Positions 1-64,000 of a stretch of 64,000 nucleotides of DNA are shown here, piece by piece; position 1 is the stretch's first letter, and each line of letters begins with the position of its first letter. The notes below the pieces were generated by a model, which worked only from the letters and a program-made list of their open reading frames with translations, did no database searches and was not told the origin of the DNA. The DNA lies in NCBI GenBank assembly GCA_007449985.2, contig VIIQ02000146.1, forward strand, positions 158,838 to 222,837, given 5' to 3'. A program made the position numbers and the translations under genes. The DNA comes from Desmodesmus armatus (lineage: Eukaryota; Chlorophyta; Chlorophyceae; Sphaeropleales; Scenedesmaceae).

Positions 1-585
1 TTATGTTTTTCACAACACCGTGTGTGTGTGTGTGGGGGGGGGGGGCGTTGCCCATTTTGGCTTTCTTGCCAGCTTCTGTTGCCCAGCTTCCGTCAAACAG
101 GGGCTGCAGCACCGTCCCCGAGCCCAAACTGCACCCCCCCCCCCCCCCCCCCCCCGCCTGGCCCCGTTGCCTCACCACCCAGTTGCTGAACAGCAGCTGC
201 CTGGTTTTGTGCTGCACCACCCCTTACTCTTGACTTCAGCACCACCCCTTACTTCTTATTTCAAACCCCAACCCCCCTTTCCACCCCGCCCCCCCCCCAA
301 AAAACATAGGTCTCTTTGCCTCACCACCCACTTGCTGAAGAGCAACTGCGTGGTCTCCTGCTGCAGCACTACCCCCAACTTCAACCCCCATCCCCCTTGC
401 TATGTGTACCACCCTATGCCGGCCTTACACACAGTAGGGAGCTCCACCCCCCTGGCCCACCCTTTGGACAACAGGTGCCTGTTCTCCTGCTGCAGCACCT
501 TTTCGAACATGCCGAACATTCAACCCCCACCTCACTTGCTGTCTATTCTCACCCACCGCCCGGCCCTCCTTCCCTCACCACCCAC
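1..585 (-). other. Intron of gene 1 made of exon-edge copies
   Basis: No coding exon is seen. On the minus strand this is the intron that follows the exon ending at 586. It contains poly-C runs (about 127-155) and three decayed direct copies of the exon end plus donor. The anchor CTGCTGCAG or its degenerate form lies at 612 in the exon and at about 487, 358 and 209 in the intron, so the steps are about 125, 129 and 149 bp. The copy at 317-375 keeps the CTCACCACCCAC core next to the donor. The rest of gene 1, including its stop codon, must lie to the left of this window. Confidence 0.6.
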
Positions 586-2418
586 CTGTTGAACAGCAGC
601 TGCCGTGTACCCTGCTGCAGCAGCACCCCCTGCTGCACTGCTGCAGCAACCATCTGGTGGATGAGAGCAGCATGCAGCAGCAGCAGCTTGTCGGTCAACT
701 CAGCCCTGCTGCTGCTGCTGCTGCTGTCACTGTAACCACTGCTGCTAGTGACACCACCGCCGCTACTGCTGCTGATGTTGGTATGGACGGCAGAGGGTGC
801 CAGTTGGCTCAGCAGCCTCAGACAAGAGTCAAATACACTAGCTGGAAACAATGGAGCCTCCGCTGCATTGCTGCCACCACAGCCGCCGCCGCCGCCGCTG
901 CTGTTGCTGAGAGCTTGAGCAGCAATGTATGCTGATGTCAGCAGCAGCAGCTGCTCATGCAGGCTAGTAGTGGGCCCTGTGGCAGCAGTCAGCCACTGCT
1001 CTATGCAAGGCAACCAGGATCCCGACAGCAGCTCTACTGCTGCTGCTGCTGCTCTTCCTGCTGCTGTCACCAGGGCGTCACTCCAGGCTGCGTCATACAC
1101 AGCCCCCTGCTGCTGCTGCTGATTGTGAAGGCGCAGCAGGGCAGGCAGCAGCTCTTCACAAGCTGCAGCCAGGCTGCTGCTGACCCGCTGCTGCTGCTGC
1201 TGCTGCTGTTGGTGTCTATCTGCTGCTGCTAGTGACTGGTGTGCTGCCACAGAGGTTACCATCCCAGCAAGCAGCCAAGCCGCTGCGGTGAGCTGCTGCT
1301 GCTGCTCTGGCGTTTTGCCACTGAGCACTTCAATCCTGTGTTGGCTGTCTGACGTTGCTGTTGCTACTGCTGATAATGCTGATGGTGGTGAGGGCTGTAG
1401 CACCTGCTGCTGTACAGCCTGCACCAGCTGCTGCTGAAGCTCCTGGTCAACATCAGATGCCAGCAGACCCAGGCTGTACAGTGCCGTGTGCCGCTGCTGC
1501 TGCTGTAGCGTTGCTGCTGCTGCTGTACTGCTTGTACCACCACATAGCAGTACTGTCCCCAGTTCACTAGTACTGCTGCTGCTGCTGCTGCTGCTGTGAC
1601 TGGGGGTCAACAGTGCTGCTTGCATCCAGGGCACAAAGCCCTCAGCGTCAAACACTGCCTTGTACTGCTGCTGCTGGCCACAGTAACCGCTGCCTGGCCC
1701 AAAACTACCGCTGCCACCAGCAGCATAGGAGACAGCAGCGGCAGCGTTTCCCAGCAGCAGCAGTACCCCGGCAGGGTCAAAGGCAGTAGGCTGCACGTTG
1801 CAAACAGCATAGCACCACACATCCCGGTTGGTCTACGGTCACAACCAACACTGTGTTTTAGCCAGGCAAGCTTACCAGAATATGCACTGCTTGTGTCTAC
1901 CTTGGAGGATACAGACATCAGAGGATCGAACAAGAGACGAGAAACATGTACAAGCTGCTTGCTGGACAATGTTGCATCATGTGCTGTTTTGTGCCCCCCC
2001 CCCCCGGCTCAAGCAGCATCTGTTGCCCCCCTCCCAGGGGCAACCCCTTGACCCCCCCCCCCACCTTCAGGCAAAGAGGCACCAGTCGCAGCACTGCTTG
2101 GCACAGTTGTGGCCGCATGTAGGATGGTTGGGCAAACTCTACATGAGCCAACACACGCAGCAGGACAGCCAACTGCTTCTCATGCCACACATCACCACAG
2201 CCACCACCGCTGCTGCTGCTGCTCAACTTACTGGCAGTCTGAGCAGCAGCAGCGGTGTTGAGTGCGTGTGTGAGTGCTGTCAGGAGGAAGAGCAGTGTGG
2301 CTGCCTTGTCCCCTGCTGCTGCTGGTGCTCCCTCAAGGTAACTCACAATCAGGTGCAGCACTGCAGGACACAACCGCTGCCGCTGCTGCTGCTGTGACGT
2401 GTCTACAGCAGCATCAAC

Positions 2419-2453
<35 letters not shown>

Positions 2454-3785
2454 GCAGCCCCATGCATCGCCCCACAAAGACGCCCAGCTGGTCCCCCAGC
2501 GCTGCCACCGCCTTTGCCTGCCTGCTGCTGCTGCTGCTGCTGCTGCTGGCTCCCACCAGCTTCCTATCAGCAAAGGCCGGCAGCAGCAGCAGCAGTAGCT
2601 CCTGCAGCGGGTCCCACCCCCCCTCTGCATTGATCCTTGATAGTGTGGGTGTGCTGAGGGTGAGTAAACCTGACAAGCCCAAACGCCTGACTCCCACATT
2701 GGTGTGGAATGCAGCTCGAAGGACCAGCACAGAACACCAGCGAACCAACTCTGCCCCACGAGCATTACTGCTGCTGCTGCTGGAGGTGGCTACTTGACAA
2801 GAGGAGGTGGTGGTGGCGGTGGGGTAAAGCGGCTGCTGTGTGCTGCTGCTGCTGCTGCTGTCCCAGAGTTGTGTGCAGCACTGCTCCCACAGGGGTTGTA
2901 TGAGGTGCAGCATGTGCTGCTCCTCAGCCCTGTATAGCAGAATATAGGAGGACCAATCAGCAGGGCTCAACACCTGCACACACCCCACAGCACGCAGCGC
3001 ACAGCACACAGCAGACAGCGCACTGGCCCTCGGAATACCATCTATCAGAGCACCCCATATGCCAAACAGGGATGCAGTTCAGAGCCAATAATTCCAGCCT
3101 AAGACACTGATCTGCCTTCAAGCTGCTGCCAGCAAGATGCACCATACACTCACCCGCAAGGACACATGTGTGCACTCCCCACAGACACAAACAAAATAAA
3201 TACACCAAACTCACCACCCTCCCTCACCCTCACCCCTGTGGCTGCTCCCCTCAGCCCCACATGCACCCAAGACACTGTCTTCTGGCACACGTTTTGAGCT
3301 CACCTTATATTCAAACCCTGCCCCCACGCTTCTAGCTGGCGCACCACCTTCGCACATGCACGCATGCACAAAAATCAAAGAGACCCCCTGCAAGAGTACA
3401 CAGTGACCACCCACCCCACCTTGGGTCCACACCCTGCCTCCACGCATGCTTCCAGCAGGTGCACTGCCCGGGTGCGACTGTGCAGGTCACGCTGCAGCAG
3501 ACCCGACAGCAGCAGACGATGCAGCAGCACACCACAGTCCTCACCCACACCACCATCCTGTTGCTGCTGCTGTTGACAAGCAGCCAGTAAGTAGGGCTGC
3601 AGCCTGCAGGTTAGAGTCAAGGCCTCAGACACCCTGCCGCTGTCACACTGGGGGTGTAACACAGCAGCAACAGCAGCAGCAGCGCTGTGTCTGTGGGTGC
3701 TGCTGCTGCTGCAGATTGCATGCAGCAGCTGCACACAAGCATTGTGGTAAGCTGTTGCCACCTCGGCTGCACCTGCATCTGGCGC

Positions 3786-3821
<36 letters not shown>

Positions 3822-5258
3822 CATGAGGGGTTCTATGAGGGTGGCTTGCAGTGCTCGACTGAGTGGGGTGCCTGCACAGTTGAACATGGGAGGGAGAGGG
3901 GAGCATTTGACTTTTGATCCAAAAGCTCCTTTACTCCTGCAAGGCAAGAGCTGAAGAATACCAGAGGCACACACATATGAGGGACATCCACATACAAGGA
4001 CGACAGAGATAAAAACAGAGGGACGGAGGGAGGGAGGGAGGGAGGGAGGGAGGAACAGACAACATGAGGGACAGAGAGAGGGAATGAGGGAGGTAGGTGC
4101 CTGCCTTGCATACATTCCCTTCAAAGGGGCGCCTGTTTCCACATAGCCAATTGGAAGTATTCTTACCTACTGCAATACAAGGCACAACACACTCCAGCAG
4201 CCTCTGCAGCAGCTGGGGCGACAGCAGCCCTGCTGCTGCTTCTGTGTCGCCTGTGTCAGTGTGCTGCTGCCTGTCTGCTGAGTGGGTCGGCGGCTGCTGC
4301 TGCTCCTGTTGTGCTGGCTGGCGGGTCTCGTCAGCCACACCATTGGGTGGCGACTGCAGCAGGGCTGCAAGCAGCTGCAGGCACGACTGCTGACCCAGAG
4401 TCAGGCCTGTGGTGTATGCACGTGCTGCCGGTGCTGCTGTGGCGGCGGCTGCTACTGCTGCTGTTGATGACGACGATGACTCCAGCAGATCAACGCAGGC
4501 CACTGCCAGCTGCTGTGCTGCTGGGTGGCTTCGCACATGCAGCTCTGCTGCTGTCCTACACAGCACTGGCACCCAGCCGTCGCCGCTGCTGCTGCTGCTG
4601 CTGCTGCTGTGTCCTGCAGCCATGCTGGTGTCAAAAGGCAGCTGGCACGAGAACATCTGTGGCAGTAGCTGCTGCAGCAGGTAGGTGGAGACACTGGCGT
4701 GCTGATTGGAGAGTGTGTGCAGCAGGGTTGCCAGGAGGTAACTGAGCCGCTGCTGCTGCTGCTGATCTGGTGGGCCATCAGGTCCGTCAGCAGCTCCCTG
4801 CTGCTTCTGCCCTGTAGTGCTGGCAGCATTGGCATGTGGGTTTGCGCCTGCAGCGGTTGCTGGCAGCCCCAGCTGGCCGTCTGGTGTCAGATGCACTTGG
4901 CTGGCTGCTGCCACTACCGAGTCAGCAAACCATGAGACCTGCAGGAGGCCCAGCACACCAGCAGTGTGGTGAGAGAGATATTTGCCGTGTGCGGCATGCA
5001 CGTATCCTGCATGTTGCACTGACTGTGAAGACTGTGCGAATAGCAAGGCAAGTTTAAAGGCACTGCTTCGCACTGCATTTCTCAATGATAAGGTGGAGGA
5101 AGCCTACAGAAAGCTGGGACATCAATGAATCTGCCCAATCTGTGAACCACCTTGAGCAGCGCATACAGGGCCGTGGAGGCAGCGGCAGCATTGCTGTTGC
5201 CTGCCAGCTGCTGCAGGCAACCGACAAGCTGGGCGCCAACGGAGTTGTCAGGCGCCAT
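586..5258 (-). CDS. Helical-repeat-like protein, possibly TARBP1/TRM3-like (3' partial)
   Basis: Exons on the minus strand are 5258-5151 (ATG), 5031-4167, 3936-3420, 2973-2065 and 1790-586; the gene runs off the left edge. About 1,200 residues are visible, interrupted by Gln, Ser and Ala runs. The remaining segments look like amphipathic helices. Around 2,950-2,700 there is a stretch with SPADWSSYILLYRAEEQHML, followed by WCSVLVLRAAFHTNVGVRRL. This W..yiLLY.aLEE..HL and H.N..VRRLGL pattern recalls the N-terminal helical region of TARBP1/TRM3 tRNA 2'-O-ribose methyltransferases. The SPOUT catalytic domain would be C-terminal and is not in view, so the assignment is tentative. In exon 3 the reading frame must shift once near 3890-3900 (a C-rich run) to join its two coherent halves. 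The first donor (GTGGTT) is weak. It could instead be another ARM/HEAT-type protein. Confidence 0.45.
3301..3350 (-). repeat. Decayed copy of exon 3 end of gene 1
   Basis: The plus-strand segment resembles 3416-3470, the 3' edge and donor of the minus-strand exon ending at 3420. Both begin CACCTT and then share CCCTGC..CCACGC..CT..C. The offset is 115 bp. It is in the intron, downstream of the real donor. Confidence 0.6.
4020..4056. repeat. (GGGA)n simple repeat
   Basis: A GGGA/GGGAGGGA tetranucleotide tract lies inside the intron of gene 1 between the exons ending at 4167 and starting at 3936. It is purine-rich on the plus strand. Confidence 0.85.
5081..5119 (+). repeat. Copy of the MSH1 exon 1 end inside neighbouring intron
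   Basis: The segment matches MSH1 6097-6137 over about 40 bp with only a few differences. It still reads LNDKVEEAYRKLG against LNGEVEEAYRKAG in MSH1. It lies in the first intron of the divergent minus-strand gene, about 1,016 bp upstream of the MSH1 original, and hits a stop soon after. Confidence 0.75.
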
Positions 5259-5577: not shown

Positions 5578-8500
5578 ATGCTGACAGCTGGGCGCACGTG
5601 GGCAGGGCTGGGCCCCGCAGTGCAGCATGTGCAATCCTGTGCTGTTGCTGTGTCGCGATGCCGGCGTGCAGCCAAGCCCGTGGCTGTGCGCACATCTCAG
5701 ACCCTGGCACATGCTTCCAAAGCACGTGTGCTGGCGGCAGCGCCTGCACCGCGCCCTGTTGCAGCTGTCAGGCCGTCCAACGGTGGGTTGTGCTGGGACA
5801 TCACGGGCAGCGCTTTCAGCAGTGACTGCAGGGCCATGCACAGTGTGGCCACGCAGTCCTGCATGCACACTCCCACTGGGCTGCCAGTGGCAGACGGCAT
5901 GCAGAGCGATCACAGCCCTGTGCGGAGCATGGGCCGCAGCAGCTGCCCCAGGCTGGTCCCCAGCACCCCACAGAGAGTCGTCTGTGTCGCCACCAACAGC
6001 AACAGCAGCAGCAGATATTCCTCTGTTTCCAGCGTGTGGGCCCCAGAGGTGGGCAGCTCCATGTCACTGCGCGGCATGCATGTCACTGCTGCAGCCCTCA
6101 ATGGTGAGGTGGAGGAAGCCTACAGGAAAGCTGGGGAGGTCGCTCTTGAAGGTGAGTGGGTCGTTGGGTGTGGCCCCAGACTCCTGTGTGTGATACTGTA
6201 TGCCACCCGTGCTCCATGTGCCTGAAAGTGTTCGTCAAGTCTTCAGGCACTGTGCTGATGTCCTGCACCTTGCAACGGTGACAGTGCCGGTGATGGGCTT
6301 GGGCGCTGATTGCTTTGTAAAAAGCCCTGTGCAGTGACTTCGATGTAAAATCACTATCGGTATCCCTCATCTCCAGCATTCCGCCCTGGTCTCCATAAGC
6401 AAAGTGCTTCTTCAGCACCAGGCAGCTTCATTGCACCCAGGTGCTGAGAGTATGCCATTTTACACCTGCACAGGGTTGTGATGCCGGGTGGCAGTTATGC
6501 ATGTTTGGCCTCCAGGACCGCGCTGACCCCAAACGCTGCCTGTCACGCAGTAGTGTAGATGTAACCTGGTGACAGTTAGGGTTGAGGGTGACGAGAAGGA
6601 CGATGGCAGGGACAGCTTCTGCAACCCTCTCCCACAGCTACTTCTCTCAACTGCTGCATGTGGCCTGTCCCGTGTCTGTACTGTTTTGCAGAGGAGATGA
6701 TCATGGAGCCTGATGAGGCCCAGTACTGGAAGGACCGGGTCGTCATGTGCAGGAAGTGAGTGGTGCCTCCTGCCATTGCAACTGCACGGTCTTGACGCAT
6801 GCACCCAGACTTTGCGCAGTCGTTGCAACCAGCTGTCTGCATAGTGCATGTTGCATGGCCCACCCCAGCTGTGCACTGTTCGCACCCTTCTGCACTGTTC
6901 GCACCCTTCTGCCCTGTTACATCTGCGTCACATGCCTTGGGCCCGTTGGGACCGCTGTGCAGACATCTATGGCCCCTGCACCAACAAGTGCCACTCCCCT
7001 GAGGGTGCCTCCTGCACGCACGGTGTTGCAAGGCACCCACCAACACACGCCACTGCCCCCAGCCGGTATCCTGCACAAGCATCTGCCACCCCGTTTGACA
7101 TGGCCTGCTCCTTGCCTGCTGCCAGGGTCTATCAGGCGCAGGACGCCATGTGGGTGCCGACTGGGGTCGCTGCATAACTTCTAGTGTGACCTGCACCAAC
7201 ACGTGCTACCCCCTCGGCCTCTCCTGCTCCCTGTCTGCTGCCCACAGTGTCAGCCAGCGGCAGGATGCCGCCCACAAGATTGCTAAGCTGGACTGGACTC
7301 ACAAGATGGGCCTCAGTCCAGTGTTTGCCTCAGGAGAGCGGCCCAACTGCTGGATGGAGATGATGGTGTCCAAGGTCAAGCATCCCTACGCCATCAGCCT
7401 TGTCAAGGTACAGGTGTAGCCAGGGGCCACACACCCTGTGTTGGTTGTTGGTGTCGGTCACATCCTGTTGTGAAACATTTGCACCGCATGGCAGGGGGCA
7501 GGAGGCACACATGTGTAGAATTGTCGGAATTGTTATTGTCCAAGCAGCATGCATTGCTCCTTGGTGTATTCTCCAGTCAACACTGACTGAGATGGATGTA
7601 TCGGCTGTCATGAAGCTTAGTGTCTTACACCCTCACACACACTTGGCAGTCTGCCTGTCCTTTGGGACTACCATTGCAGGACGCTATGGCATCTACTGCC
7701 TGTTGTGGTTTGCGGTTGCTAGCTTGTAGTGGCGGGTGATATGCCGCCATGCGCCATGCCGTGCTGACGTGTTGGCCGATGAAGGGGAACTGGAAGTCTC
7801 AGCACAATGAAGCGAACCCTCAGCAAGGCCTGCCAGCCGGGCCCGTGCTTTGCACAGCTTAGGCATGTGGTGGCTGCTGATGGCATGTCCTTCATGTCCC
7901 AGTCAGTGCGCCGTCCAGTGCCAAGCTGTCTGGCATGTCATGTCGTCTGTGCTGCGCTGTGTGGTGCTGTGCTGTGCTGTGCTCTGCTCTGCTCCGCAGA
8001 TTGGGAAGTTTTACGAGGTTGCCGGCATTGATGCCATCATCATGGCGGAGCACCTGGGCTTGGCTCTGATGGGCAAGGCGGAGGAGCGCGTGCCCAAGGC
8101 AGGGCTGCCTGAAGGGAATCTGGCCAAGTCGCTGAGGGTGCTGGTCAGGGAGCAAGGGTTTGAGGTGGTGAGTGACACGGGGACGCGAATGAGGTTCTTG
8201 TACAGGCTGCGTGTTTGCTCATATGAGCGCTGACCTGACGCTCACATGGTGGCAGAAGCAGCATTGATGCTTGTGTGCGCTAGGGATCGTCCGACAGCAA
8301 CAACATGTCCTGCCTGTTTCCAGCATGATTTGGGCTGAGCAGACAACACCGTGCTGGGATAACACCGTGGGACCACTTGCGCCTGCACACCTTGGCGTGT
8401 GGTGCTTTCACGTCAGCTGTTGTGTGCTGCAGGCCGTTACGGAAGAGGTTGGCGATAGAGGGCACCTGAAGCAGCGGCAGCTGGTGCAGCTGGTGACCCC

Positions 8501-11500
8501 AGAAAACCCGCAGTATTTGTACAAATTTGCGGAGAGCGGCGGCTCAGATGTGGATCTGGAGGCTCCCGCCATCTGCGGTAAGCAAGGATGTGAAGGTCTT
8601 TTGCAAGAGTGCGGGTGTTACCGCAGTGGGTGACATGCACAGTGCCCTTACCTGCTTGCTGTGGTTCCTGTCTCCTTGGCCAGAATCTGTGTTTGCCGTT
8701 TGGTCTCTCACATCTACGAATGTGATCATGTACATTTGTTTGACAATCTCCGGCCGTGCATCACACAGTCCAGCTGTGCCGACGGCTGGCTTTCCGCCCC
8801 AAAGCTGATCTGGCTGCCGCCCGCTCTCTCACCCCTCGCTGTGTCCAGGGCTCACACACACCAGCCGTGGCTACAGTGTGATGGCGTACAACCCGGGCAG
8901 CAACAGGATCGTGCTGCACGAGGGCCTCACACTGGATGCGGCCTGGGGGCACATCTTCACAGACAGGTCATCTAAGCCGATTGTGTACTATCACAGGCCG
9001 CTGGATGAGCCCAAGGTCAGTGCTGGTGTGACGAAGGATTGGTTCCACTTCAGTGTGGCTCCATCAACTGCACTATGACAGCACCAACTGCACTGGGCAT
9101 GAGATAGTGCAGCTCCGCAACCATCTTTGAAGAGCATCAATGGTTGATGCTCTTCTGGGACACTCCCCGTCACAGATGGTAGCGGGAAGCACTGTGAACA
9201 TCCGCTGTGCGCGGCTGACTGCGCATCAGTGCAGGGAAGTGTTTGAGTAGCGTTAGTAGGTGTATGGCGTTGTGTGATGGGCTCCTCAGCCTGTAGTTCC
9301 TTGGGCCGTGCCCTGCACTGATGCCACATGCGCTGGTGGTGTGCTTGCCCTGCTTGTTTACCTTGCACTGCAATAGGGTGCATGCTATGCTTTCTGCATG
9401 TCTAGAAAATTCTGCACACTCGTGAGGCTCTGATGTTGGTGCAGCCAACAGAGCCTGCAGGGCATCACCTAGTTATGGTGATCACCTGGTGATCACCATG
9501 CCGTACGTTGCTGTGCTGTGTTGCGCTGTGCTGTGCTGTGCAGCCCAAGGAGATCGTCACTGCAAAGAAGCACCTTGACGGTGTAATGTAAGTGGCAGGC
9601 ATCGTCGATGCTATCCTTGCTCTGGCCTGCATATTCCACTAGTCACCATGGGGCCTGGGCATTGCATGCAGCCTGAAGCAGCATTCCATCCTTGGCTGCT
9701 GCATGGCATCTGGCGTGCAGGAAAAAAGGTTGAAAACCCAACAACAAACAAAGCTGGTTTTGGCAAAAGCTGTGTTTGCCAAGGGCTCAAATCACCTTGT
9801 GTTTGAATGCTGCTGCCGTGTGCCTGCTGCAGCGCTTATGATTACTCTGCGGCTGATCCCCTGACAGGCTTCAAAGCCAAGCTGCTGCAGCGGAAGGGCC
9901 TCCCTGCTGAGACAGAGCTGCCTGTAGTGCCAGTGAGCATGCCAGGGCCTACTAGCTGCTTGCACGTGCGATTTGAAGGGCGCTCGAAGGGAGGGGTCAG
10001 TTGCACGAGCGGCCAGCATCGTTGATATTGAGAGCAGCTGCTGGCAGCCGCCTTGCGAGGCTTGTAGCTGTTTGTGACTGCCTGGTGCTGACAGATGTAC
10101 TATCTCCTGTTCCTGTCAATATTGCCAAGTCATGGGCTTCATGAGGGCGGCAGGGCTTTGCACTCGTGTGGGGTTGAGGGGTAATGTGTTAAGTGACACC
10201 TTCACCTGACAGTGGATGTGGGCAGGTTTCAGCTTGGCTCACAGCAGGCAGTATTGTGCTGGCCCTGCCTGGCACAAAGAGCGATGCGGCAACCCGACCA
10301 AGGACACAGTCTGCGTCTCCTTGTAGGACTAAGACTGTATGTGGCACTCGTGCGGCTTGCAAGCATGCCTCCCGTGTACTCAATGTGTGCAACACATGTC
10401 CTGCATGCCTGTGTCATGCAGTTTGACTGGGGCAAGTGGGGCATCCACCGCGTGCGGGCCATGTACCCCAGCACGGCAGCGCAGCTGGGTCTGCTAGCAG
10501 CCGCATTTGCTGGCAGGTTGCCGTCCCTCTTGGTAAGCCCTGGGCATGCATCAGCAGCTGCTTTGTGAGGCATGCGGGCTGTTGTGCGCGCCTGATCGCA
10601 GTGTGTCGCTGAATGCTGCGGCACTGTGTTGCAGGTGCTGTAACTGCAAGGCTGCCATGCTGCCCTGCACAAACCAAAGGTGTCCCTGGCAGCTCTTACT
10701 TGCACGATGCTGAGCATAGTGTTCCAGGCAAACATTGGATGTGGCTCCGTGAGCAGTGCGGCCTCACCACACTGCGTAAATTAGCACATGTCCTTGCGAC
10801 AACCGACGGGAGTCTGGCGGTTGTGCGGGTGCGTTCTGACGGCCAGGCCTGCTGCTGCGTTGCATGTGTTGTGCAGGACGCTGCACTGCCGGAGGGCTCC
10901 CGCAAGTTTGTGAGGAACATGCTGGGCAGCCTGCTGATGTGCCCACCGCCCTACGGAGTGGCAGCATCCACACGCCAGGCCGTCAAGCAGCTGAGTGAGT
11001 GGTGGTGGTTTCAGGGGAATGTTGTGGGGTGTTGATGGTCATTGGGAGCGGAACGGGGCGGCGACCACAGTCGCAGGCAGTGTGCTGAGTGAGAGCATAA
11101 CCCTTGTGCAGGGACCAACTTGGTGAACTGGACACATTGTTTCCCAAGAACAAACTGCCAAAGTCAGCTCTGCAGCCCCTGGACCAGCCAAATGGCAAAG
11201 TCACAATAGTGGTGCCACGTGTCTGTGTGCACGCGTGTCCCCCTGCCTGCAGTGGTGCTGGACCAGCTGCTGCCTCAGTTCTGTGAGCGCGGCGTGACGC
11301 CCCAGAAGGTGATGGTGGTGCTGCAGAGGGAGGGCAATGCAGACTTCTTCCAGGCCTTCCTGGGTGAGTGGCAGGGACAGGGTTAGCCCCAAGGGGTTGC
11401 GGTTTTACCAAAACCAATACCAATAATACCAAGCCATCAAATTTTGAAGGTTGAACTTCAACTGGCGTCAAAGTCGTTGGTGTGTTTGGAGCGGGCGTGC

Positions 11501-17818: not shown

Positions 17819-17841
17819 GGCAGCCACATGTCGGTCGCAGT

Positions 17842-24443: not shown

Positions 24444-24452
24444 CAAAACTTC

Positions 24453-41044: not shown

Positions 41045-44000
41045 GCAGCGAGGCGTGTGGGATGCCCTGCAGCTGCAGCGCTGTGTGGTGTACTTTGTGC
41101 TGGATGAGTCAGGCCAGGTGTTGGTGAGTGTGCAGGCAGGTGCTGTCGAGTATGGCTGTCACCACTGCATGAAGGCCTGCTCCTGCCTTGAAAGGCTGGG
41201 GGGTATTTTTGCTATGCAGGCAGGCTATCCAGACCACTTTCACTTTCAAAAAGCTCATTATTGTCAAGCAGCTGAGGTTTGATGGGGCAGCAGCGCACCC
41301 AATGTGCACACCAGCAGAAGGAGGTTATGTTGTTCAAACAGGATGCATCGTGGCATGCTGCAGGCTCAGACAAGCAGGTGCTTGGTGACTAATGGTATCA
41401 TATACTTGGGGAGGTGAGGCAACTGGCTGGCGGTGACTGGGCGTGACAAGTGCAGGTGGCAGGCAGACAGCATTGCTTGGTGTGTTGATTACTGGAGTGC
41501 AACCAGCCAATTCAGCATGACCAGCCATGACATGACAGTTGACACTGTCATGAGTCGTCTGTGTGAGGGGCTGCCCTGCCTGGGGTGTACCTGCTGACTC
41601 AGCAGAAGCCACAACTCACCATGGAAGCCATAACCCACACTGAATGAGGCTGTCAGAGGAGCCATGCTGTGCTGCGTACATCCATGCTCCACATGACAGT
41701 CTGCCTTCGTGCTGGCAGCATCCCGCACTCAACAATACCTTCTTGGTGAGAAGTGGATATTACCTTATTACCTACCAAATCACCTACCATATTACATATT
41801 GCCACTCTGCTGTCTGTATGCTGCTGCCTGCAGCCTGCTGTTCTTCAAGCAGCTCACACAGCCCGCCACAGACTGGCTGCTGCAGCAGCACGCAGCACCA
41901 GCATATGGCGGCCCCACAGTAGTAGCCTGGCAGCAGCTGCTGGCTGCTCTGTTCCAGCTGCTATGGCTGCTGCCAGTCTATCTTGTCAGTCTGATGGTCA
42001 GCTGCATTTGGTGAGGATCTCGGGGGGGGGGGGAGTGTAGCTGGCATCAGGGTTGATGCTGTGTTGGTGGAGCTTCAAAAGCGCAACCCCACAACTTCAG
42101 TTCTGGCACTTGTGTAGAAGAGTGGATAAGAGAAAGTGTGTGGAGCCCCGGGGGCAGGGGGGAGGGGGCAGGCTTTCTTGCCACTGGAGGCAGATGGGAT
42201 GTGTGATGTTGGTGCTGGCAGTGGGAACTGGGCATTGTTGGTGAGCTACAAGCAAGGCAGCAGGTAGTGCATAGGGTACATTACTTGGCAAGTACAGCAG
42301 CAGAGGCCTCACCAATGTCGTGCTGGCTTGCCTGCTGTGTCACATGTTTTGTTTGCTTTGCTGTGTGACATCATCTGTTCCGTTGTGTGACATCGCCTGT
42401 ACACTGCCTATCAATCGCCTGGTGTTATGCCTGCTGTAGGTACCAGCAGATCGCAGCAGCCACCTTTGATGTTCAGCGCAAGCAACAGTACCTTAAGCAA
42501 CTCGCGGCAGAGGCAGCCAGCAGGCAGGCTGGCACCAGCTCAGCTGCTACCGCTGCCGGCGAGGTGCCATCATCCTGCCCCCTTGTACAGCCCCCCTGCG
42601 ATTCCCCAACTCAAGATCACTCAAACCAGCAGCAGCTGCAGCTGCGGCCGCGGCATCCGACGCAGCAACACGGCCCAGGTAGTGCGCCGCTGCCGAGCCA
42701 GCAGCAGCTGAATCAATTCAATCAGCAGCAGCAGCAGCTGGCAGCAGCCGTGACGCACCCGCTGGGTGGGGGTCAGGCTGCTGCCGCTGCAGGTGGTGGT
42801 GCTGCTGCTGGTGGTGGTGGTGGGATGCTGAAAGTTTTGGAGGGCACTGCACAGGAGGTGTTTCGGGTGCTGCTGTTTGTGGTGTTCACGTTGGAGGTGT
42901 ACATCATGAGCTTACTGCCGTTTGTTGGTAGGTGAGGGAGGACGTGGGTCATTGTGTGTGTTGAGATGGGGCATACATGTGTGCCATGCATGCAAGAGCT
43001 GGGCTGAATGCTCTCAAGAGAATCACACATTGCCATCTGTATCTCTCGAAAGCGTTTGTGCTCTGGGAAGGTGTGATGTGTGTGAAGTGGGGAAGCCAAC
43101 CTCAAGAGAGATGTCTCTGAAGATGCTGCACAGCACATGACTCCACCACATTTGCTGCCTGCTTATGTGTATGGGTGCGATCTGCAGGTGCTGTGTTGAA
43201 CGTGCTGTTTTTGTCTTGGCTGTATGCCTACTACTGCTTCGACTACAAGTGGGCTCTGGAGGGCATCAGGCTGCCAAACAGGCTTCACTTCTTTGAGTGC
43301 AACTGGGCCTACTTTGCAGGTTCGGGGGAGGGGGAATGCCACCACAGGGTTTTGTGTGCTTGTCCCTAGGGGGCCAGAGTCCCACCCGCCATGCTGAAGG
43401 GCATCAGACTGCCCAACAGGCCGCACTTTGCAAAGTGCAAGTAAGCTGGCTGTGCAGGCATGTGAGGGCAGAGGGGTGCCGCCCCATCATCTGGGTCCAG
43501 CAGTCAGTGTGCTGGGAGAAATCACAAGCGACTTGCATGTTATGAAAATGCACACTGCTACAGCATACTCAGAACAGCTTCCCAGTTCCTACCACATACT
43601 CGAAACGATTTCATTGCCCAGCAATCAGCATTGCAACCCAGCTGTGCACATCATATGCGCACAGCTGGGTAGAAATGGAGCACGAAGTGGAGCGTGCAGC
43701 ATAACGCATGCCGAGGCAGCAGAGTGTTCCTACAGCAGACAGCTGATTTCAATGTGCGGCGGGGTTGCTAACAACTGGACAGGCGACGTGCAGGAACTGT
43801 GCGGCAGGCAATGATAGCCCCAGCGTGTGTGAACACAGTTACCCATGCATGTGCAGTGCTGCTGTTCATTGCATGCGCGTTTGTGTACTTTACCCTGTGC
43901 AGGTTTTGGGTTCCCGTGTGTGGTGGCGACCATCTTTTGGCCTTTCCATGTTGGTGCTGCACTGGCCAACCTGCTGTTCCCACTCTTCATCATGGTTGCC

Positions 44001-44383
44001 TGTGGGGCAAAGCCACAAGAAGCAATGGGTGGGTGATGCAGACAGACTGCCAGCAGTAGCTCCGAGCTCTGTAGCCCGCAATTGATCTGGCAACTGCGGT
44101 CTACAGAGCTTTAAGTTGCGCTCAAGCTGCCATATGCTTTGGTGCTGAATGACCTTGAATGCTTCTGGTGAAACAAGATTTGTTTGTCGTGTTTGTCAGG
44201 TCTGTGTGTACTGTGTGTGCCCTGCTTGCTGCCGCTGCAGGCCTGGCGTTGGGTGCATCAGGCCGTGAGGGTGAGGAGGCGCCTGTAGGCAGCCTGCCTG
44301 TGTTCAAGCTCGCGCTGCGGCCGACATACTGGCTGGTGCGCAAGGTGTTTGCGCGGCTCACACCCACACCACCAGGACGGTAG
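41045..44383 (+). CDS. EI24: EI24-family multi-pass membrane protein (5' end unresolved)
   Basis: EI24 (etoposide-induced 2.4) homologues are ER membrane proteins tied to autophagy and ER-organelle contacts. Exons seen: 41045-41123, 41834-42010, 42440-42927, 43188-43319, 43903-44028, 44241-44383. Matching blocks in order: GVWDALQLQRCVVYFVLDES (plant WxGF.EACCLHRVV block); SLLFFKQLTQPATDWLL-type segment; ALFQLLWLLPVYLVSLMV then CIWYQQIA, the LWxLPLYxLSxxxxxxWYQDIA signature split exactly by an intron at 42010/42440; FRVLLFVVFTLEVYIMSLLP; WLYAYYCFDYKWALEGIRLP; HFFECNWAYFAGFGFPCV; HVGAALANLLFPLFIMVAC. At least five hydrophobic segments result. A Gln/Ala/Ser-rich insert (about 42520-42830) separates two of them, unlike animal EI24. 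All junction phases from 41834 onward fit; an exon between 41123 and 41834 and the start codon may be missing. Confidence 0.85.
43399..43440 (+). repeat. Copy of an EI24 exon inside the following intron
   Basis: GGGCATCAG.CTGCC.AACAGGC..CACTTT is found at 43261-43302 in the exon and again here, 138 bp downstream and in the intron after the donor at 43320. The copy ends with a GCAAGTAAG that still looks like a donor. Confidence 0.85.
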
Positions 44384-44387
44384 CGCA

Positions 44388-44566
44388 TGGCCTTGCTGCA
44401 GGAGACCCTGTACCCGGCTCTGTACATAACAGTGGAGACCTGCAAGAGCCTCTGGTGCTTGCTGGCCTCTGGTTTGCACACGAGCCTGCTGGCCCCTTCT
44501 CTTCGGGAGAGGAAAGGGGGTGCTGAGGTGCCGGCAAGGCTCCCACCCACACCACCAAGATGCTAG
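44388..44566 (+). pseudogene. Short ORF ending in a copy of the EI24 C terminus
   Basis: An ATG four bases after the EI24 stop opens a frame of about 59 codons ending VPARLPPTPPRC. EI24 itself ends VFARLTPTPPGR, and the DNA CACCCACACCACCA is shared at an offset of about 184 bp. It may be a decayed tandem copy of the last exon, or an alternative last exon. There is no sign of expression in the sequence. Confidence 0.4.
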
Positions 44567-51741: not shown

Positions 51742-51777
<36 letters not shown>

Positions 51778-54700
51778 GCTGTCGCTGACTGCACACATTC
51801 CGTTTTGTGCGCATTTGGTGCCGTGTTTGGTGCGCACTGCAGGCACTTGGTGCTGCCGCTGGCCGCAGCAAACCTGCCCGCAGGGCACGGCACGCACCCG
51901 CCCTCCAAGAACGGCGTGCCGTCCCCACTATAAAACCCGGCCCTGCAAACACAGCCCGTCCCATCCTTTGCCACTGAGCCCTCGGGGCATGCGATGCAAG
52001 ACTGCGAGCCCAGCTCTGCGCGTTCTGCTGCATACGTGTTTCCAGGCCCGCACTTGACGCATGGAGGGGCTCCACTTGGTGATGCCCACCCAGCAGGGCA
52101 TACACAAGACCGGTGTGAAGCCGGGCAGCGGCAGCCGGTGTGTGCATCGTCTGGGACAAGGCCAGCGGGGCAGGAGAGGCACTGAGTCCCGCCGGCACCG
52201 AACTGGCCGCTGCTTTGCAAATCGATGGCCAGGGTGAATGCTGGACAGTGCTGGCAAGAGAGGGTGCTGTCGCCGGGGGAGAAGGAGCCAGGTGCACACT
52301 TAATGCAGCTGAGGGTGCTGCCGGCTGTGTTGCTGGCGCCAAAACCGGGGGCGCACACTGGGGTTGGAGGCAGCACATGGAAACAGACAGACGCACAAAT
52401 CAAGCAGGACATGAAGGGCATGAATGGCAGCGGCAGGCAGCAACAACAGTGAAAGAATAGTCAAGCTGCAGCAGTTCAGGCGTGCGCGCTGTGTGCGGGT
52501 CGCACCACCAGAACTTTACTGCCAGCACGCATGCTTGTGTCGTCCCCGAGAAAGGCAACAGACGTGCATGCTTGGCAGATGCGTCAGACAAAACAACACA
52601 CCACGCCAATGCAAACATGCAGTAGCCGGATGAGGGATCATGCAGATGGCCTGCATGCTTGTCAGCCACTTAGTTATGTGTCAAACATGCTCATGGCCCA
52701 TGGGCAGCTTGAAATGTGAAAGCACACCAACACCCCTGTGTGTTTGCTGAGCACGGATCACTGCAGCAAGCACCCAGCATAAGCAAAGGAGCACTAAGCA
52801 CTGCAGTGTTTCTACCTCCTGTTGAGCTGCATGCCATATCTTTTGCTCTTGTGACTCACAGCCAGCTGTAATGGCATCACATAAATCATCAATGGCCCAC
52901 CCTCCAGCAGCTGGCTGTAACAACTACTGAACAAGCAATAAGCAAACTTACATTGACGAACAACACTACAGAGCAAAGAGCCTCAACTCACAGTTGCACT
53001 GCACCTCGCTCCACCTGCCGGTGCCCTCTGTTGTCAGCCCCGTCCTGCACTTCTTGGCCTGGCTGCCCGTGCAGAATGATCCCTTGGGGCACAGCGTGCA
53101 CTGCTGGTCACCCTCCTTGTAGTAACCAGCCTGGCAGTACTGGCACAGCACCTGCACACACAGATGCGCACACGCAATAAGCATAACCGCATGCTTGATT
53201 GTGACATTGTCTGGGATTGCATGCTGTCCCAATTATCCGCGACTGTCTTGGCCGAAGTGTACCCAGCCTGGCAGTACTGACATAGCACCTGCACAATGTC
53301 ATGTGTCAACATTCATATGCATACACAGCGTTTGGGTGAGCTGCTTGAGGCTTTGCTGTGTGCAAACCTGTGCTGTCGTTGCCTAGCCTTGTCTGCAGGG
53401 GCAATTGTTGTCGTTCTGCTAAAGCGCCTTACATCACCCTTTCCTCACTCCGACGTGTCTCCACACGTGCTCTTGCGGATGAGATGCACTCCCACCATTA
53501 TTGTCTTGACTGTCATGTTTGGTATGCCTTCCCAGGCCTGTCTGTCACCTCAGCCATGCTGCACAATGCACAGCAATGAGGCACAGAGAAACACCGTGCC
53601 ACCACCCTTTTCCTGACTTTGTTACCCATGGAACCCACAATCCGTGCACCACGAATATACCCCGCCCGGGCTGATCGACCCAAACTCTCACCTTGCCGGT
53701 TTCTGTATCTTCGGGTGGTAGGCACACCGCGCAGTTTGGGACCGAGCCTGCCGCATCTGCTGACGAGCAATTGAAGGGACAGCCTGCACTGCCAGGGGCA
53801 CAGCTTGCAACGCTACTGGCGTCCGGTACCGCAGGTGAACCCTTGCTGGGGTGCTTCCTATCTTTCTGTGCATGCTGCCGCTGGTGTTCCTCCCCTGCCT
53901 CCTCCTCCATCTCCTCCTCCTCCTCCTGTGAGGAGGCTGCATCCGCTGTGTCAAGCAGCGCTTGTTCTACTTCCCCCTGCCCCTCTTCCTCTTCCTCCTC
54001 CTCTCCCTCATCAGTCTCAGCCTCTGCCTCTTTTGCAACAATGGAGCTTGCCTCAGGGCTGGACTCAGTAGCCGCAGCTGGAGGCTTTGGGGGGGCATCT
54101 TTAACTGCTGCTGGAGCTTTCCCAGAGGGAGACGAGGAGGCCTTGCGGCCGGCCCCTTCGGTGCTTTCACTGGAAGCGTGAGTCTCTACGGCCCCCTCTG
54201 TGGCTGCTTTCTCCTCCTCCTCGACCACCTCCTCCTCAACCCACTCCCACTCCTCATCGATTTCCTGTTGAGAGGCACTGCTGCTGTCATCCTTGCTGCT
54301 GCCGCTGCTGCTCCTGCTGCTGCTGTCGGTTGCATGCTGGGGCTCTGAGTCAGCAGCCTTGCTGTCCTTGGCTGCCTTGCTGCTCCCTGATCCTGGAGGC
54401 TGCTGTCCCCCCTGCTTCTTTCCCTTGACCTTACTCTCTGAACCCGCTGTGCTGCTGCCAGGGCTGCCCGCCTTTGCTGCGACCTGCTTGCTATCTTGGA
54501 CCCCCTTTGCACTGCTGCTGCTGCTGCTGTGGTCGGTACCGGCACCAACGGGGGTGTCCTCCTTGGCGCTTGCATCGTTGCTGCTTTGGAACCCGCTCTG
54601 GCCCTCACCGTCTGCCGTGTCGCTCGCGGGCTGACCTGCGACGTCGATGTATTCGATGCTTGTGATGACGGCGTCTTCGCTCCCGTCGCTGTCGGCATCC

Positions 54701-56668: not shown

Positions 56669-56709
<41 letters not shown>

Positions 56710-58096: not shown

Positions 58097-58277
58097 CCAA
58101 AGTTGGGCGATCTGCACACGTTTGGTTCGCGCCAGCGGCGTGTCAACATGATCTTATATGTAACAAGTACCCACAGAAGGCAGCTTGCCTGGGGACAAAA
58201 TCTGTGGGCACGACAGGCAGCAAAAGAGTGGCTCGGATCACACGTTTGCCCAAAGTTGGGCAGTCTGCACACGTTTC
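58097..58277. repeat. Direct repeat pair, 152-bp spacing
   Basis: CAAAGTTGGGCGATCTGCACACGTTT-like sequence appears twice (about 58097 and 58250) with a two-base swap. On the minus strand it reads NVCRSPNFG and NVCRLPNFG. The spacing of about 152 bp is like that of the exon-edge copies elsewhere in this window, but no exon was recognised here. Confidence 0.75.
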
Positions 58278-58840
58278 CTGACGGCCAAAGGCACATGAAA
58301 ATGCTCCTTCACATCGTGACATTGTATTCCTGCATTTTCATCTGGGGACACGCACTGTGCTGCCCACACGGATCATTGCACGGGTCAAACCCCAGGCAGC
58401 TGGGACCGCTTCAGGGGTGGTGGTGGCTTGATGCCCTGCTACTGGATCTCCTGGAGAATGCCACATGCAGCTGCTGCGGCCAACGCAGTACGCTTCAAAA
58501 CTGTGGGATCTCATCTTGGATTGCTTGTCATGCTTCTGTGCATTGCCCTGGACTCGAGGGCCTGAAGGCTCCAAGCTTTCGGCGACACGGGCAGCTCAAC
58601 CGCATGTGCTGCTGGTGACACCGCCGCAGTCGAGCGCTATATCACAATTTTGGTGTAGAACAGGCTCTGAACCAAGTCCTGCCTGCAGCAGCAGGTTGTC
58701 TTGCCTGGATACACCTGGTTGCATACATATATTCAACTGACAGCCTGGTTGCAGCTCAGTTGCCGGTAACTGCCCGATTGCTGTGCTGAGTGGGTGTGAG
58801 CTTGCTATAATGGCATGTATGTTGGCTGCGCAACCTGCTG

Positions 58841-60150: not shown

Positions 60151-60189
<39 letters not shown>

Positions 60190-63127
60190 CTGTGTGAAGA
60201 GAGGGACGTACCATGATCATGTTGGCGGGGACACATCCGTGTCGAGCGATAATGTCTGTCAGGAGGAACGGGGAGGGCTTGCCAGTCACTGTGGGCGCCT
60301 TCTCAACAACACCTGCAGCAGCAACAGCAGCAGGAACAACAGTTTCAAGGGGCTGGCCTTGTATGGCACCCACTGAACCTCCCAGCACCAGCACCAGCAC
60401 CCTCACTGCTTTGTTGCAGCCAGGCACAAATGCGCTATGCAGCGGTCGTTGCGTCTCCCTTTCCAACCTATGTAGACATCAGGCTCAGACTGAAGGAGGG
60501 GCCACGTCACTGTCAAAGCAACATTCACAGCTATGAATGCTGGATGATGCTTTCATGTTGCACCTTGCCCCACCTTGCATGGCTCCAGCTGGAGCTTCGG
60601 CCCCCCTTCTTGACACTACCACCAGAATCACGGCCGTCCAATGCCAAGATCAATGTCCTGCCAACAGCTGAAGCTCCTCTGATCAGTCCCATTGTGATGT
60701 GCGGCGGCCATTCCGCAGTGCCTCGCCTTGAATCCGATAACTGTTACTCCAGGCCCCCTATGTCAGCTGAAGGTTCTCCCTCTGTCAACATCAATGCCTA
60801 GCCCAAAGTTCAAAGTTCAAAGTTCCAAATCAAACCCCAACTCTGATTAGCCCTGCCATCGGTGTTCAACCCGGAATGGCCCCCCAGCTTTTCCCCAACA
60901 CACCCACCACCACCAGCACCATGCTTCTAGTGCCTGTTCACTGCCTAGGCCACACAACCACACCCCCTTGCTAGCCCTGCCTCAGTGCCTCACCTTGAAT
61001 GGCCCCCACTGTAGCTCCAGCCCCCGCCCACTCCTGGTTAGGGGTGAAGTGACCCCTCGCATCAGCATTGGTGGCTATGAACAGACAACCAGGGTTGTTG
61101 AGCAGACAAAGCGATGCATACTGGATCTGCAGCACAGCACACCACATCACATCACAGCGCATCACAGCGTGGTGCAACACATCAGCAGAGCACGACAGCG
61201 TTGGTGACTGGACATAGACAGCCCAAACTGATCAACAAGCACCACAGCACCGTGTAACTGCAGCTGCAGCACAGCACAAAATGATGCAACACATCAGACC
61301 TCAGACATCAACCCTTTATACTTGCCCCCTTTCTGTAGTACCTTAGTCTTGGGACCACCCCACACAACTGCGCCCACTGAGGGGTCCTGCTGCACTCTGT
61401 GCCCTGCATCTTGGTGCCCCGTACTCCCACAACCCAACCTCAACTTTGCCCCCCCTTCCCCTCGTACCTGCCCCCACCTTGACTGATCTCCATCCAGCCC
61501 CCCCCCCCCCCCCCACACACACATATCGCTGTTTGAAGCCAGCATTTCCTGTAGTTGGCGCCCCTACCACCCAACCGTCACCCCCCTGCAAGCCTCGACC
61601 CCGATGCGCTCCTACCTGCCCCCACCTTGTAGTAGGATAGCCCTGGGTCCACCCCACACACCACTGCCCCTACTGCTGGGTCCTGCTGCACTTCGCTGCT
61701 GAAGCTGGCCACCTTGCCGTTGTCAGCAGGACCACCGAATGACTGGATGCCCACTGCTGCCAGCTCATCAAGGATGCCACACGCACCAACAACGTACGCC
61801 TGCGCAACACGGGGGGTGGGGGGTGGGGTGGGGTGGGGTGGGGTGGGGTGGGGTGGGTGGGGTGGGGAGGGGTGGGGAGGGGAGGGGGGTGGGGGTGGGG
61901 GTGGGGGTGGGGTGGGGGTGGGGGTGGGGGTGGGGGTGGGGGTGGGGGTGGGGGTGGGGGTGGGGGTGGGGGTGGGGTGGGGTAGGGTGGGGGTGGGGGT
62001 GGGGGGGAGGTGTTTGGCATAGAAGATACATGCATAGCTAGCATACATGTGTGTGTGGGGGGAGAGGGGAGAGGAGACATGTGTGCGGAGGGGGACAATT
62101 GCGGGGACACCAAGCAAGGACCTGGACGGAACCAGCGGCAGGAGCTGGGTTGCAGGTGGTTGGGTCGTGTAGATGTTTGGTGACCTGCTGATGCCAAGTC
62201 ATGTGTGATGCCTGGGTCACACACAACTACACTTGAGTTCATGTACTGCTGTAAGGGAGGGCTGAGGGAGGGGGGGGGGGGAGCCAACGGGTGCCAGCAC
62301 CACGTGTGTGCATGATGAAGAAGCAACATACGGTGCAGGGGAGTGTGCAGGGATGGTGAGGGGTTCTTGCTAGATACATGTGGGGTGTGAGTTGTAAAAC
62401 AGCAAGCCCGAGACCGCCACAGCCCCTAAGCCAACACCGTGCTCAAGCTGCATATGGGTGTGCAGTGCATGCAGCCAGAAGTAGTTGTTTGCATCTCTTG
62501 GCTTACATTATATATCACCGGCCCCTCACCTTTTTGTTCCTGTCAAAGCCTATTGAGTCAAGATAGGCTGCTGCTGAGTAGGAGCTGCAGTATATCTCCT
62601 CCTGCACACAACAGGACACAGCAGGCAGCATATGCTGGAGGCAGACACACACGGCCGCAGCCTTGGATGGCTACACACTTTGGGGTAGCAAACTTCATCA
62701 TCATGATAATCACAACAATTGTACTATACACTTTGCAAGCAGGTTCATCATGCAGAAGCAACAAGTCTACCTAGGTGCCAAAACAGCATTACCCGACGAA
62801 TCTGGGAAAGCTTTGCAGCCTCCCACGGGACTGACTGGCATGACGAAAACAGCACGATGCCCCCCCCCCCCCGGGTTGCATTTGCTGAGATAGCCCCCTG
62901 CCCTCTCACCACCACACAGCACCTCCCCCTTGCTTCCCTTCCCCGTCCCCAGCACTCACTCACTCACTCACTCACTCACTCACTCACTCACTCACTCACT
63001 CACTCACTCCCTCCCTCACTCAGTCTCTTGCTGCCTCACTCACCACTGCTGCAGGCACCCCCAGTGCCTCAAACTTGCCAAGGTAGGCCTGCCGTGACTT
63101 CATGCTGTTGTTGGTCATGAACAGAAC
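59141..63127 (-). CDS. PGP: Phosphoglycolate phosphatase, HAD superfamily (5' partial)
   Basis: This enzyme dephosphorylates 2-phosphoglycolate made by Rubisco oxygenation, the first step of photorespiration, in the chloroplast. Minus-strand exons: 63127-63044, 62601-62530, 61799-61626, 61126-60994, 60312-60212, 59726-59654, 59259-59141, with all phases consistent (251 residues plus stop). Motif II is VLFMTNNSMKSRQAYLGKF (TNNS). Then come EEIYCSSYSAAAYLDSIGFD, AYVVGACGILDELAAVGI, VGAVVCGVDPGLSYYK, LFIATNADARGHF and NQEWAGAGATVGAI of the cap domain. GKPSPFLL supplies the motif III Lys, and VGDRLDTDILWGRNTGMATL supplies the motif IV acidic pair. The motif I DxDG Asp nucleophile and transit peptide must lie beyond 63127, to the right. 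A 4-nitrophenylphosphatase-type paralogue is possible, but the match to algal/plant PGP is close. Confidence 0.92.
60571..60920 (-). repeat. Three decayed copies of a PGP exon end
   Basis: The 3' edge of the exon ending at 60994 has CACCTTGAATGGCCCCCACTG on the plus strand. Related copies occur at 60868-60895 (GGAATGGCCCCCCAGC), 60716-60760 (CAGTGCCTCGCCTTGAATCC...ACTCCAGGCCCCC) and 60571-60605 (CACCTTGCATGGCTCCAGCT). Anchor positions 60991, 60868, 60724 and 60571 give steps of 123, 144 and 153 bp. Confidence 0.8.
61321..61500 (-). repeat. Two decayed copies of another PGP exon end
   Basis: The exon edge at 61616-61690 is copied at 61321-61395, where TGTAGTA.C.TA..CTTGGGACCACCCCACAC and GGGTCCTGCTGCACT can be followed. 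The minus-strand read is VGAVVWGGPKTKVLQKG against VGAVVCGVDPGLSYYKVG. A shorter trace, CCTGCCCCCACCTTG, is at 61467. Steps are about 149 and 146 bp. Confidence 0.85.
61812..62010. repeat. G-rich (GGGGTG)n tract in PGP intron
   Basis: About 200 bp of GGGGT/GGGTGG units on the plus strand, starting just 12 bp upstream of the PGP exon at 61799 in the transcribed direction. On the minus strand it is a C/A-rich polypyrimidine-like tract leading into the acceptor. It is very likely to form G-quadruplexes on the plus strand. Confidence 0.95.
62955..63025. repeat. (CACT)n repeat next to a PGP donor
   Basis: About 14 CACT/CACTC units. On the minus strand this is (GTGA)n or (GAGT)n directly downstream of the donor GTGAGT at 63043, so many donor-like GTGAGTGAGTGA words occur in a row. 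Confidence 0.9.
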
Positions 63128-64000
63128 CTGCTTGCCCGAGCACAGCAGCAATCACAGTGTGCAGCAGCAGCATGTTGTTTAAACCTGCAGGCGGTGGCAA
63201 CAATCACTTGCTGCCTTGTATATAATTGGCCATTACCTGGTGTAGCTGGTGCAAAACACCGATGGGGGTCGGGGTATATCCCATCTATTGTTGCAGCCGG
63301 CTCAATCCTGGTAAACATCCCACTGATGTGTGGCGACTGTGTCTACATGTACTAAATCGCCCCCTTCCCCTAATGATGCCTGGTGGCAGGTGCGGTACCC
63401 TGCACTTCTGCACTGTACGCTGTTTGCATATGCAACATCAGAGGGGTGATACAAGCTTCATGATCAGGTGAGCACTGCATCACCAGTATATACTGGGCCA
63501 CAGAACATGCCGCTGGCCTCAACCATGCACAACATCCGCACGGGCTGCTACGGCACCCCTTGACCGCAAGTCCGCCTCCCACTCACATACACGCATGCAG
63601 TCTCTCTGTCGACACACAGCCACCACTGCCCCTGTCACCATCTGTCGCAGCAGCGCCAGCACCTACACCACCTCTGAACACCAGAGCCACTCCCCCTCCC
63701 TCCCACCCACCTACCCAGCCCCCACACCAACATCACATAGCCCCCCCCCCCCCCACCCCACCCACCCCCCACACCAACATCACAGAGCCCCTCCCCCCCC
63801 CCCCCCCACCCCCCACACCAACAAGAGCCCCCCCCCCCACCCCCCCCCCCCCCACCCCCCAACCCCCAACACCCCCCACCCCAACATCACAGAGCCCCCC
63901 CCCCACCCCACCCCACACACCCCAACATCACAGAGCCCCCCCCCACCCCCCACCCCACCCCCCCACACACCACATCACAGAGCCCCCCCCCCCCCCCCCC
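63128..64000 (-). other. PGP intron at the right edge
   Basis: No coding exon was recognised. The last 270 bp are poly-C tracts punctuated by CACACCAACATCACAGAGCCCC, a unit repeated at least five times. The upstream PGP exons should lie to the right of the window. Confidence 0.55.
63719..64000. repeat. C-rich minisatellite with CACCAACATCACAGAGC units
   Basis: Units CAACATCACAGAGCCCC (or CATAGCCCC) separated by C-runs of variable length recur at about 63729, 63776, 63884, 63925 and 63971. Confidence 0.85.

Follow-up and report, generated by a model that had tools for sequence, protein, structure and literature searches.

Decayed and well-preserved intronic copies of exon edges in the green alga Desmodesmus armatus: a possible local route to longer introns

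Introduction

How introns lengthen is poorly known, transposons being the usual answer. In a 64-kb stretch of the Desmodesmus armatus genome (64,000 nucleotides, hereafter the window), several introns contain a second, imperfect version of the edge of a neighbouring exon together with its splice site, which raises the question of whether introns can grow by local duplication of exon edges and from which source such copies would be drawn. An initial annotation of the window had listed 16 offsets at which copies recur, at 115–155 bp, and had attributed them to a dedicated process. Introns growing by local exon-edge duplication would preserve a datable fossil of each event, and where copy and exon differ only silently, the source of the copy becomes directly testable, be it the same chromosome, the other allele or a sequence selected in place. 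On the practical side, gene finders may call intronic exon copies with good splice sites as exons.

Materials and Methods

The assembly comprises 115.8 Mb in 831 contigs at a GC content of 57% and is intron-rich; for Tetradesmus obliquus, a table in PMC5966456 gives a mean intron length of 462 bp and likewise 57% GC. The scan for short-range direct repeats covered the window and a further 22 stretches of the genome (14 + 8; 213 kb), 277 kb in total. The ungapped scan used a score of at least 16 and offsets of 60–399 bp with arrays and low-complexity sequence masked, and was controlled by five first-order Markov resamplings, which are not exact dinucleotide shuffles. The gapped scan employed 6070 overlapping 80-base query windows with a score of at least 16, inverted repeats serving as control. 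Arrays in the stretches L011, L012, L014 and L024 as well as window positions 38100–38800, holding a 226-bp coding-repeat pair of the SPT5-like gene, were dropped before counting, and four further satellites of the window were masked in the ungapped 277-kb count and in the gapped scan. In the ungapped scan, the low-complexity mask covered about a third of the window; as it concealed the Cys-rich pair described below, other pairs may be missed.

Repetitive sequence of other kinds was encountered as well. The window holds a 13-bp minisatellite (ACCCACAGGAGCA) with about 40 copies at 99% match (23923–24444), a long G-rich array (GGGGGT, 61811–62007) and a long C-rich one with a 46-bp unit (63698–64000). 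Outside, L024 contains a satellite with a period of about 265–290 bp in several near-identical copies (6761–8550), and L011 an open frame resembling, by eye, a reverse-transcriptase-type retroelement protein (650–1735).

Gene names in the window are those of the initial annotation; in the case of SPT5, the identity is presumed from this name and from the general character of SPT5 sequence. L019 and L021, located by tblastn with human proteins, are taken to be PIG-A-like and CPSF73-like, respectively, and L004 encodes a carrier-like protein as judged by eye.

Results

Direct repeats at short range clearly exceed all controls. In the ungapped scan of the window and the 22 other stretches, 35 direct pairs were found versus 1, 6, 3, 3 and 3 in the Markov resamplings and versus 7 inverted pairs in the same 277 kb, a count without array masking. 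Gapped alignment gave 148 direct versus 30 inverted matches among the 6070 overlapping query windows, and in the window alone 31 query windows had a direct repeat versus a single one with an inverted repeat. The excess is due neither to chance nor to base composition. A mini- or microsatellite reading was rejected, as there is no uniform short head-to-tail unit and real arrays had been masked before the counts; none of the key pairs is listed by TRF, where a 43-bp row at 27305–27393 overlaps one copy.

With respect to distance, seven of the nine ungapped window pairs lie at 100–159 bp, and the merged gapped matches of the window at offsets of at least 60 bp (n = 16) are split into eight at 115–153 and eight at 183–267 bp. 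Over all loci, 120–139 bp is the highest bin between 60 and 239 bp. Outside the window, exon-edge copies are found at 111–139, 177, 211 and 250–257 bp and, in series, up to 545 bp, the overall span being about 43 to 545 bp. The range of 115–155 bp is hence a real local concentration of the window and not a single unit, given the copies at 43, about 85, 177, 211 and 250–257 bp, and it does not hold generally, offsets being wider in the other stretches. Whether offsets are multiples of three gave a mixed and uninformative picture when checked by hand.

In the window, exon-edge copies were legible for two exons each of gene 1 and the SPT5-like gene and for the EI24-like, Cys-rich and putative SRPBCC genes; wherever the gene structure was read, copies sit within a longer intron next to the intact exon. 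SPT5-like exon 6 (31959–32116, plus strand) has an open frame, preceded by CAG and followed by GTGAGG. In the upstream intron, a copy of its start lies at an offset of 144 bp (31815–31846, plus strand; ungapped score 14) with four synonymous and four nonsynonymous codons, and downstream a frameshifted copy of its end including the 5' splice site follows at 133–135 bp (32189–32249, plus strand), matching the offset of 135 bp assigned to this exon earlier. The start of a later SPT5-like exon (real edge 37954–37994) has a frameshifted upstream intronic copy at 37699–37740 (plus strand, offset 255 bp, gapped score 18). The same gene also shows a 226–228 bp direct repeat of TPMHPSMGGST-type coding sequence at 38117–38428; its second unit is possibly either an exon of its own or a displaced copy within the intron. 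Likewise, the end of the EI24-like exon (43256–43319, plus strand; open frame YAYYCFDYKWALEGIRLPNRLHFFECNWAYFAG) recurs downstream at precisely the offset of 138 bp reported before, as a decayed copy with a stop codon (43394–43457, plus strand). Near this gene, a direct repeat pair with an offset of 183 bp is located at 44343–44566.

On the minus strand, the exon end of the SRPBCC gene (27484–27551) is followed by a frameshifted copy including the 5' splice site at 115 bp (27369–27431), for which a genome search returned the self-match only, and 43 bp further by a third, more decayed partial copy (27319–27350; ungapped score 18 at offset 43). The 115 bp given initially for exon 4 are thereby found again, and a pair at 135 bp (26283) may correspond to one of the two offsets of exon 5 (134 and 131 bp), the second of which was not recovered. 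The start of the Cys-rich exon (53122–53151, minus strand), reading VLCQYCQAGY after GTGTGCAG, has an upstream intronic copy at 53259–53288 (minus strand) that differs in three silent and no replacement changes over ten codons; its offset of 137 bp agrees with the 136 bp noted for exon 3 of this gene. In gene 1, the end of exon 3 (3420–3453, minus strand) has a downstream copy at 3304–3332 (minus strand) at 116 bp instead of the 115 bp read before. AAG|GTG is present in both, and the ungapped score of 17 is below the background maximum of 22 obtained at other offsets. The end of exon 5 (548–604, minus strand), which terminates a 427-aa open frame at 549–1832, is accompanied in C-rich surroundings by a series on the same strand, comprising copies at 424–497 (offset about 125 bp), at 321–369 (about 254 bp from the real edge and 129 bp from the previous copy) and at 183–221 (a further 149 bp), so that the initial steps of 125, 129 and 149 bp are all reproduced.

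Taken together, 10 of the 16 offsets could be recovered and six could not. Besides the second value for SRPBCC exon 5, the offset of 117 bp in MSH1 was not recovered in the window, and from the PGP region only the 153 bp remained, as a direct repeat pair at 58097–58306 that could not be placed on an exon edge; for the other PGP offsets (149, 146, 123 and 144 bp) the best matches fall in the G-rich array at 61811. The central observation stands nevertheless: intronic copies of exon edges including the splice site are real in genes of the window as well as at other loci, several are clearly decayed by frameshifts, stops and replacement codons, and some form series, as in gene 1 and a CPSF73-like exon.

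Outside the window, exon-edge copies were identified in at least four of the 22 stretches (L004, L012, L019 and L021), a lower bound since the relation to exons was worked out for part of the matches (not, for example, in L005, L014 and L025). The most extended series is that of the CPSF73-like gene, where copies of one exon end recur 129, 251, 387 and 545 bp downstream, with another three copies in front of the exon start. The frame stays open from this exon through copy c1 into copy c2. Repeat pairs with no recognised exon exist, too (L019 646 and L021 2533). In L012, the spacer between two exon-end copies (4283–4351) consists mostly of telomere-like CCCTAAA/CCCTAA units. L021 1627–1700 and L019 4504–4714 are short elements present on dozens of contigs, with about 86–95% and 77–93% identity, respectively, among the scored candidates (40 of 878 and 40 of 318), which say little on second alleles.

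The shape of a copy is characteristic. In well-preserved pairs, the exon parts agree closely as far as the splice site. Within the exon, the copied stretch breaks off abruptly; on the intron side, similarity runs on for about 6–12 nt of splice site and then ceases. The repeats are between about 30 and more than 100 bp long. In 15 of 16 pairs, of which c1, c3 and c4 belong to one exon, four to six of the first six intron bases are identical, bases 7–12 being less so, and over intron bases 13–80 the similarity is no better than in shuffles in 13 of 16. The remaining three align on through the intron: the start of CPSF73-like exon 8 (CPSF(ii)), with 70% identity over 291 gapped columns and no shuffle out of 200 reaching the match, the end of SPT5 exon 6 (1/200) and c1 (4/200).

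For analysing the codons, 17 exon–copy pairs with a readable exon frame were picked by the analyst from the matches listed, with eight gapped codons set aside and L019 4165, gene 1 and the 255-bp SPT5 pair left out. Changed codons are 70 silent versus 37 replacement or stop. The 11 best-preserved pairs, all from three of the 22 loci (L012, L019 and L021) and separated from the others after inspection of the data, show 48 synonymous versus 10 nonsynonymous or stop codons, whereas the other six, including the decayed L021 copy c2, amount to 22:27. In simulations, a copy that is dead from the outset while its exon is constrained yields a silent share of 0.38, and the observed 0.83 was reached in none of 1500 runs; it was reached in 13 of 1500 with a copy dead for 20% of the time and in 619 of 1500 with one dead for 5%. 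Accordingly, coding constraint acted on these 11 copies during some 80% or more of the time since they parted from the exon. When c1 and c4 are left out, as they share the exon's own branch with c3, the ratio is still 39:9 (p about 1e-9). Silent divergence, with Ks about 0.33, is homogeneous among these pairs (chi-square 8.5, 10 df, p 0.58), which is what one allelic divergence would give. The initial view of copies simply dead and decaying is hence not supported for the best-preserved ones, which still resemble working protein code in a way that simple decay leaves unexplained.

Most copies in the window behave differently. Window pairs and L004 together show 17:22, which fits plain decay (p 0.29 against the expected share of 0.38; p 0.11 against the 0.33 simulated for this class). 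The Cys-rich pair, absent from the simulation, adds 3:0, and with it the ratio becomes 20:22 (p 0.13 against 0.38 and p 0.03 against 0.33), so that the coding signature is seen at three loci and in this one window pair. For the older class of six pairs, the best fit has constraint over half of t = 0.254, resembling the fresh class of 11 pairs; 75% dead also fits, while with a wholly dead copy the observed share was reached in 49 of 1500 runs. The Cys-rich pair lends weight to the repeat observation and to the silent-only pattern, as does the clustering of window offsets to the earlier range, yet neither decides between the explanations.

Discussion

The pattern can tentatively be ascribed to local tandem duplication across exon–intron boundaries, with some copies originating from a diverged functional allele and decaying afterwards, although we put this at somewhat less than an even chance. 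Short DNA segments straddling the boundary would be duplicated in tandem nearby; as long as a usable splice site is kept beside the intact exon, the protein would remain unchanged and the intron would become longer. Such duplications would be tolerated, since only the intron grows, whereas a repeat within the exon would not be. Exon edges would be the visible part: the exon half of a duplicate can still be recognised against a working exon that stays nearly constant, whereas the two intron halves drift apart. Some copies might be taken from a diverged functional allele by unequal exchange or break repair between homologues matching only in exons; these would carry silent changes from birth, along with conserved splice sites and unrelated introns, and would decay subsequently. 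We infer here that tandem duplication was the event, that it was neutral and that some copies had an allelic source.

In favour of boundary duplication, exon edges have their copies on the intron side, and splice-site bases are retained in most of them; the excess over the controls, the series and the three pairs that align through the intron point the same way. PMC7955037 describes a Scenedesmus strain as likely diploid with separate haplotype contigs, and diploidy with separated haplotypes would make exchange between homologues possible, although it also keeps an assembly artefact alive. Against the proposal, the unlike intron sides in 13 of 16 pairs represent more divergence than a Ks of 0.33 suggests. 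Moreover, no second allele of PIG-A-like exon 4 or CPSF73-like exon 2 was found in the assembly, the latter search returning the exon and its local copy only, so that the diverged allele itself is not seen. Copies c1 and c3 show silent differences only, though both are intronic; their flanks, with an intron identity of 0.58 that is no higher than in other pairs, hint weakly that both have been intronic since their own duplication, which would require constraint in place. Gene conversion between copy and exon was discarded by reasoning only, as it would homogenise without favouring silent changes. In a more far-reaching and rather doubtful form, introns would grow by capturing exon edges from diverged alleles that match only in exons or, bolder still, truncated copies would be under protein-level selection in place. 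If allele capture were true, every intron would keep a record of earlier exchanges between alleles, to be read from the silent differences in the exon edges fossilised within it.

Plain intrachromosomal tandem duplication, in which copies start out identical, lose their function immediately and decay neutrally with no allele exchange, would account for most window copies and L004 with their near-balanced codon changes as well as for the decayed, frameshifted and stop-bearing copies in general. Yet it is at odds with the 11 best-preserved pairs, with or without c1 and c4, and among the non-array matches listed no whole unit of near-100% identity was seen, although young ones would be expected and masking may hide some. 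As an explanation of the whole, it appears unlikely.

Selection on the intronic copies themselves, used now or formerly as alternative exon pieces or splice sites with the protein code kept, would be in line with c1, c3 and c4 of one exon differing silently or nearly so, with AG directly before and GT after the block in c2, c3, c4, L021 3276–3326 and L012 4241 (by eye), and with the open frame from the CPSF73-like exon via c1 to c2. However, 3' copies end within the exon without GT (by eye in L021 1366–1491, L012 5969 and 4538, and L004), and truncated, donor-less copies can hardly be translated, making constraint in place hard to believe for them. Furthermore, a stop is reached when reading on from copy (ii), L012 5830 has TAA, c2 is decayed and c1 lacks an adjacent AG. 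This reading is therefore quite improbable. A mini-exon reading of the 5' copies was rejected by eye because AG positions and lengths are inconsistent.

We consider it no less improbable that, in the assembly, the two haplotypes of a diploid strain, though diverged, were joined in tandem at exons, where they are similar. The pattern does resemble orthologous exons with unrelated introns, and the likely diploid Scenedesmus strain mentioned above would provide a precedent for separate haplotypes. A series in which an exon end occurs five times in tandem, once in decayed form, and the stops and frameshifts in copies are nevertheless difficult to reconcile with such an artefact, and no second haplotype was found for the two exons searched. 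A two-arm artefact, which would place a copy of the start of the next exon before the 5' copies, was rejected, as no such copy was seen by eye at SPT5 exon 6 and PIG-A exon 7.

The dedicated process suggested by the initial annotation, duplicating nucleosome-length units at splice sites, could draw on the offset concentration in the window and on the highest bin at 120–139 bp. The exon-edge copies far outside this range and the pairs lacking a recognised exon argue against it, and a minimal intron of 70–100 nt plus an edge of 30–60 nt would probably give a similar lower end, leaving this process highly improbable. Least credible are introner-like elements or other mobile DNA that would leave long target-site duplications on insertion, to which the sharp 30–60 bp repeat edges around non-homologous spacers and one L012 spacer with telomere-like repeats might point, but the two spacer regions searched genome-wide match only themselves, making mobile introners unlikely and bearing out the initial statement that a transposon signature is absent, repeat lengths vary, and a simple insertion with a long target-site duplication, though fitting the sharp edges, explains neither silent-only differences nor pairs alignable through the intron.

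Tandem duplication across boundaries, which we thus tentatively prefer, has relatives among known systems. Patch-mediated repair of double-strand breaks yields tandem duplications with or without filler, in which the copies are identical when formed and bear no relation to splice sites, and is a plausible source of short tandem duplications like those observed here. Gao and Lynch reportedly linked internal gene duplication to intron creation, duplications within genes activating splice sites; here, in contrast, exon edges are copied and the protein is unchanged as far as can be seen. Duplicated mutually exclusive exons are tandem exon copies with silent differences, whereas the present copies are truncated, and a complete exon copy with acceptor and donor was not encountered, the 3' copies having no donor and some 5' copies having AG and GT ends. 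Introners, for which PMC9860276 names green algae among the lineages, likewise shape introns by insertion-like events but differ in that no sequence family was found for the two spacers searched here and repeat lengths are not constant. A review (PMC3443670) treats the origin of introns by tandem duplication, and for the potato RdRp a tandem duplication crossing the intron–exon boundary is described in PMC4974935. The initial statement that no system with this signature has been described was accordingly too strong, although literature titles and abstract openings yielded, besides PMC4974935, no intron–exon boundary duplication of this kind. As in the potato case, the duplicated segment carries splice signals and crosses the boundary. 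Unlike there, where by that account a new intron arises, an existing intron is lengthened and keeps a redundant exon edge, at many places and sometimes in series. Duplication across exon–intron boundaries is already known; what is new in D. armatus is how often it occurs, that copies form series, and the coding signature.
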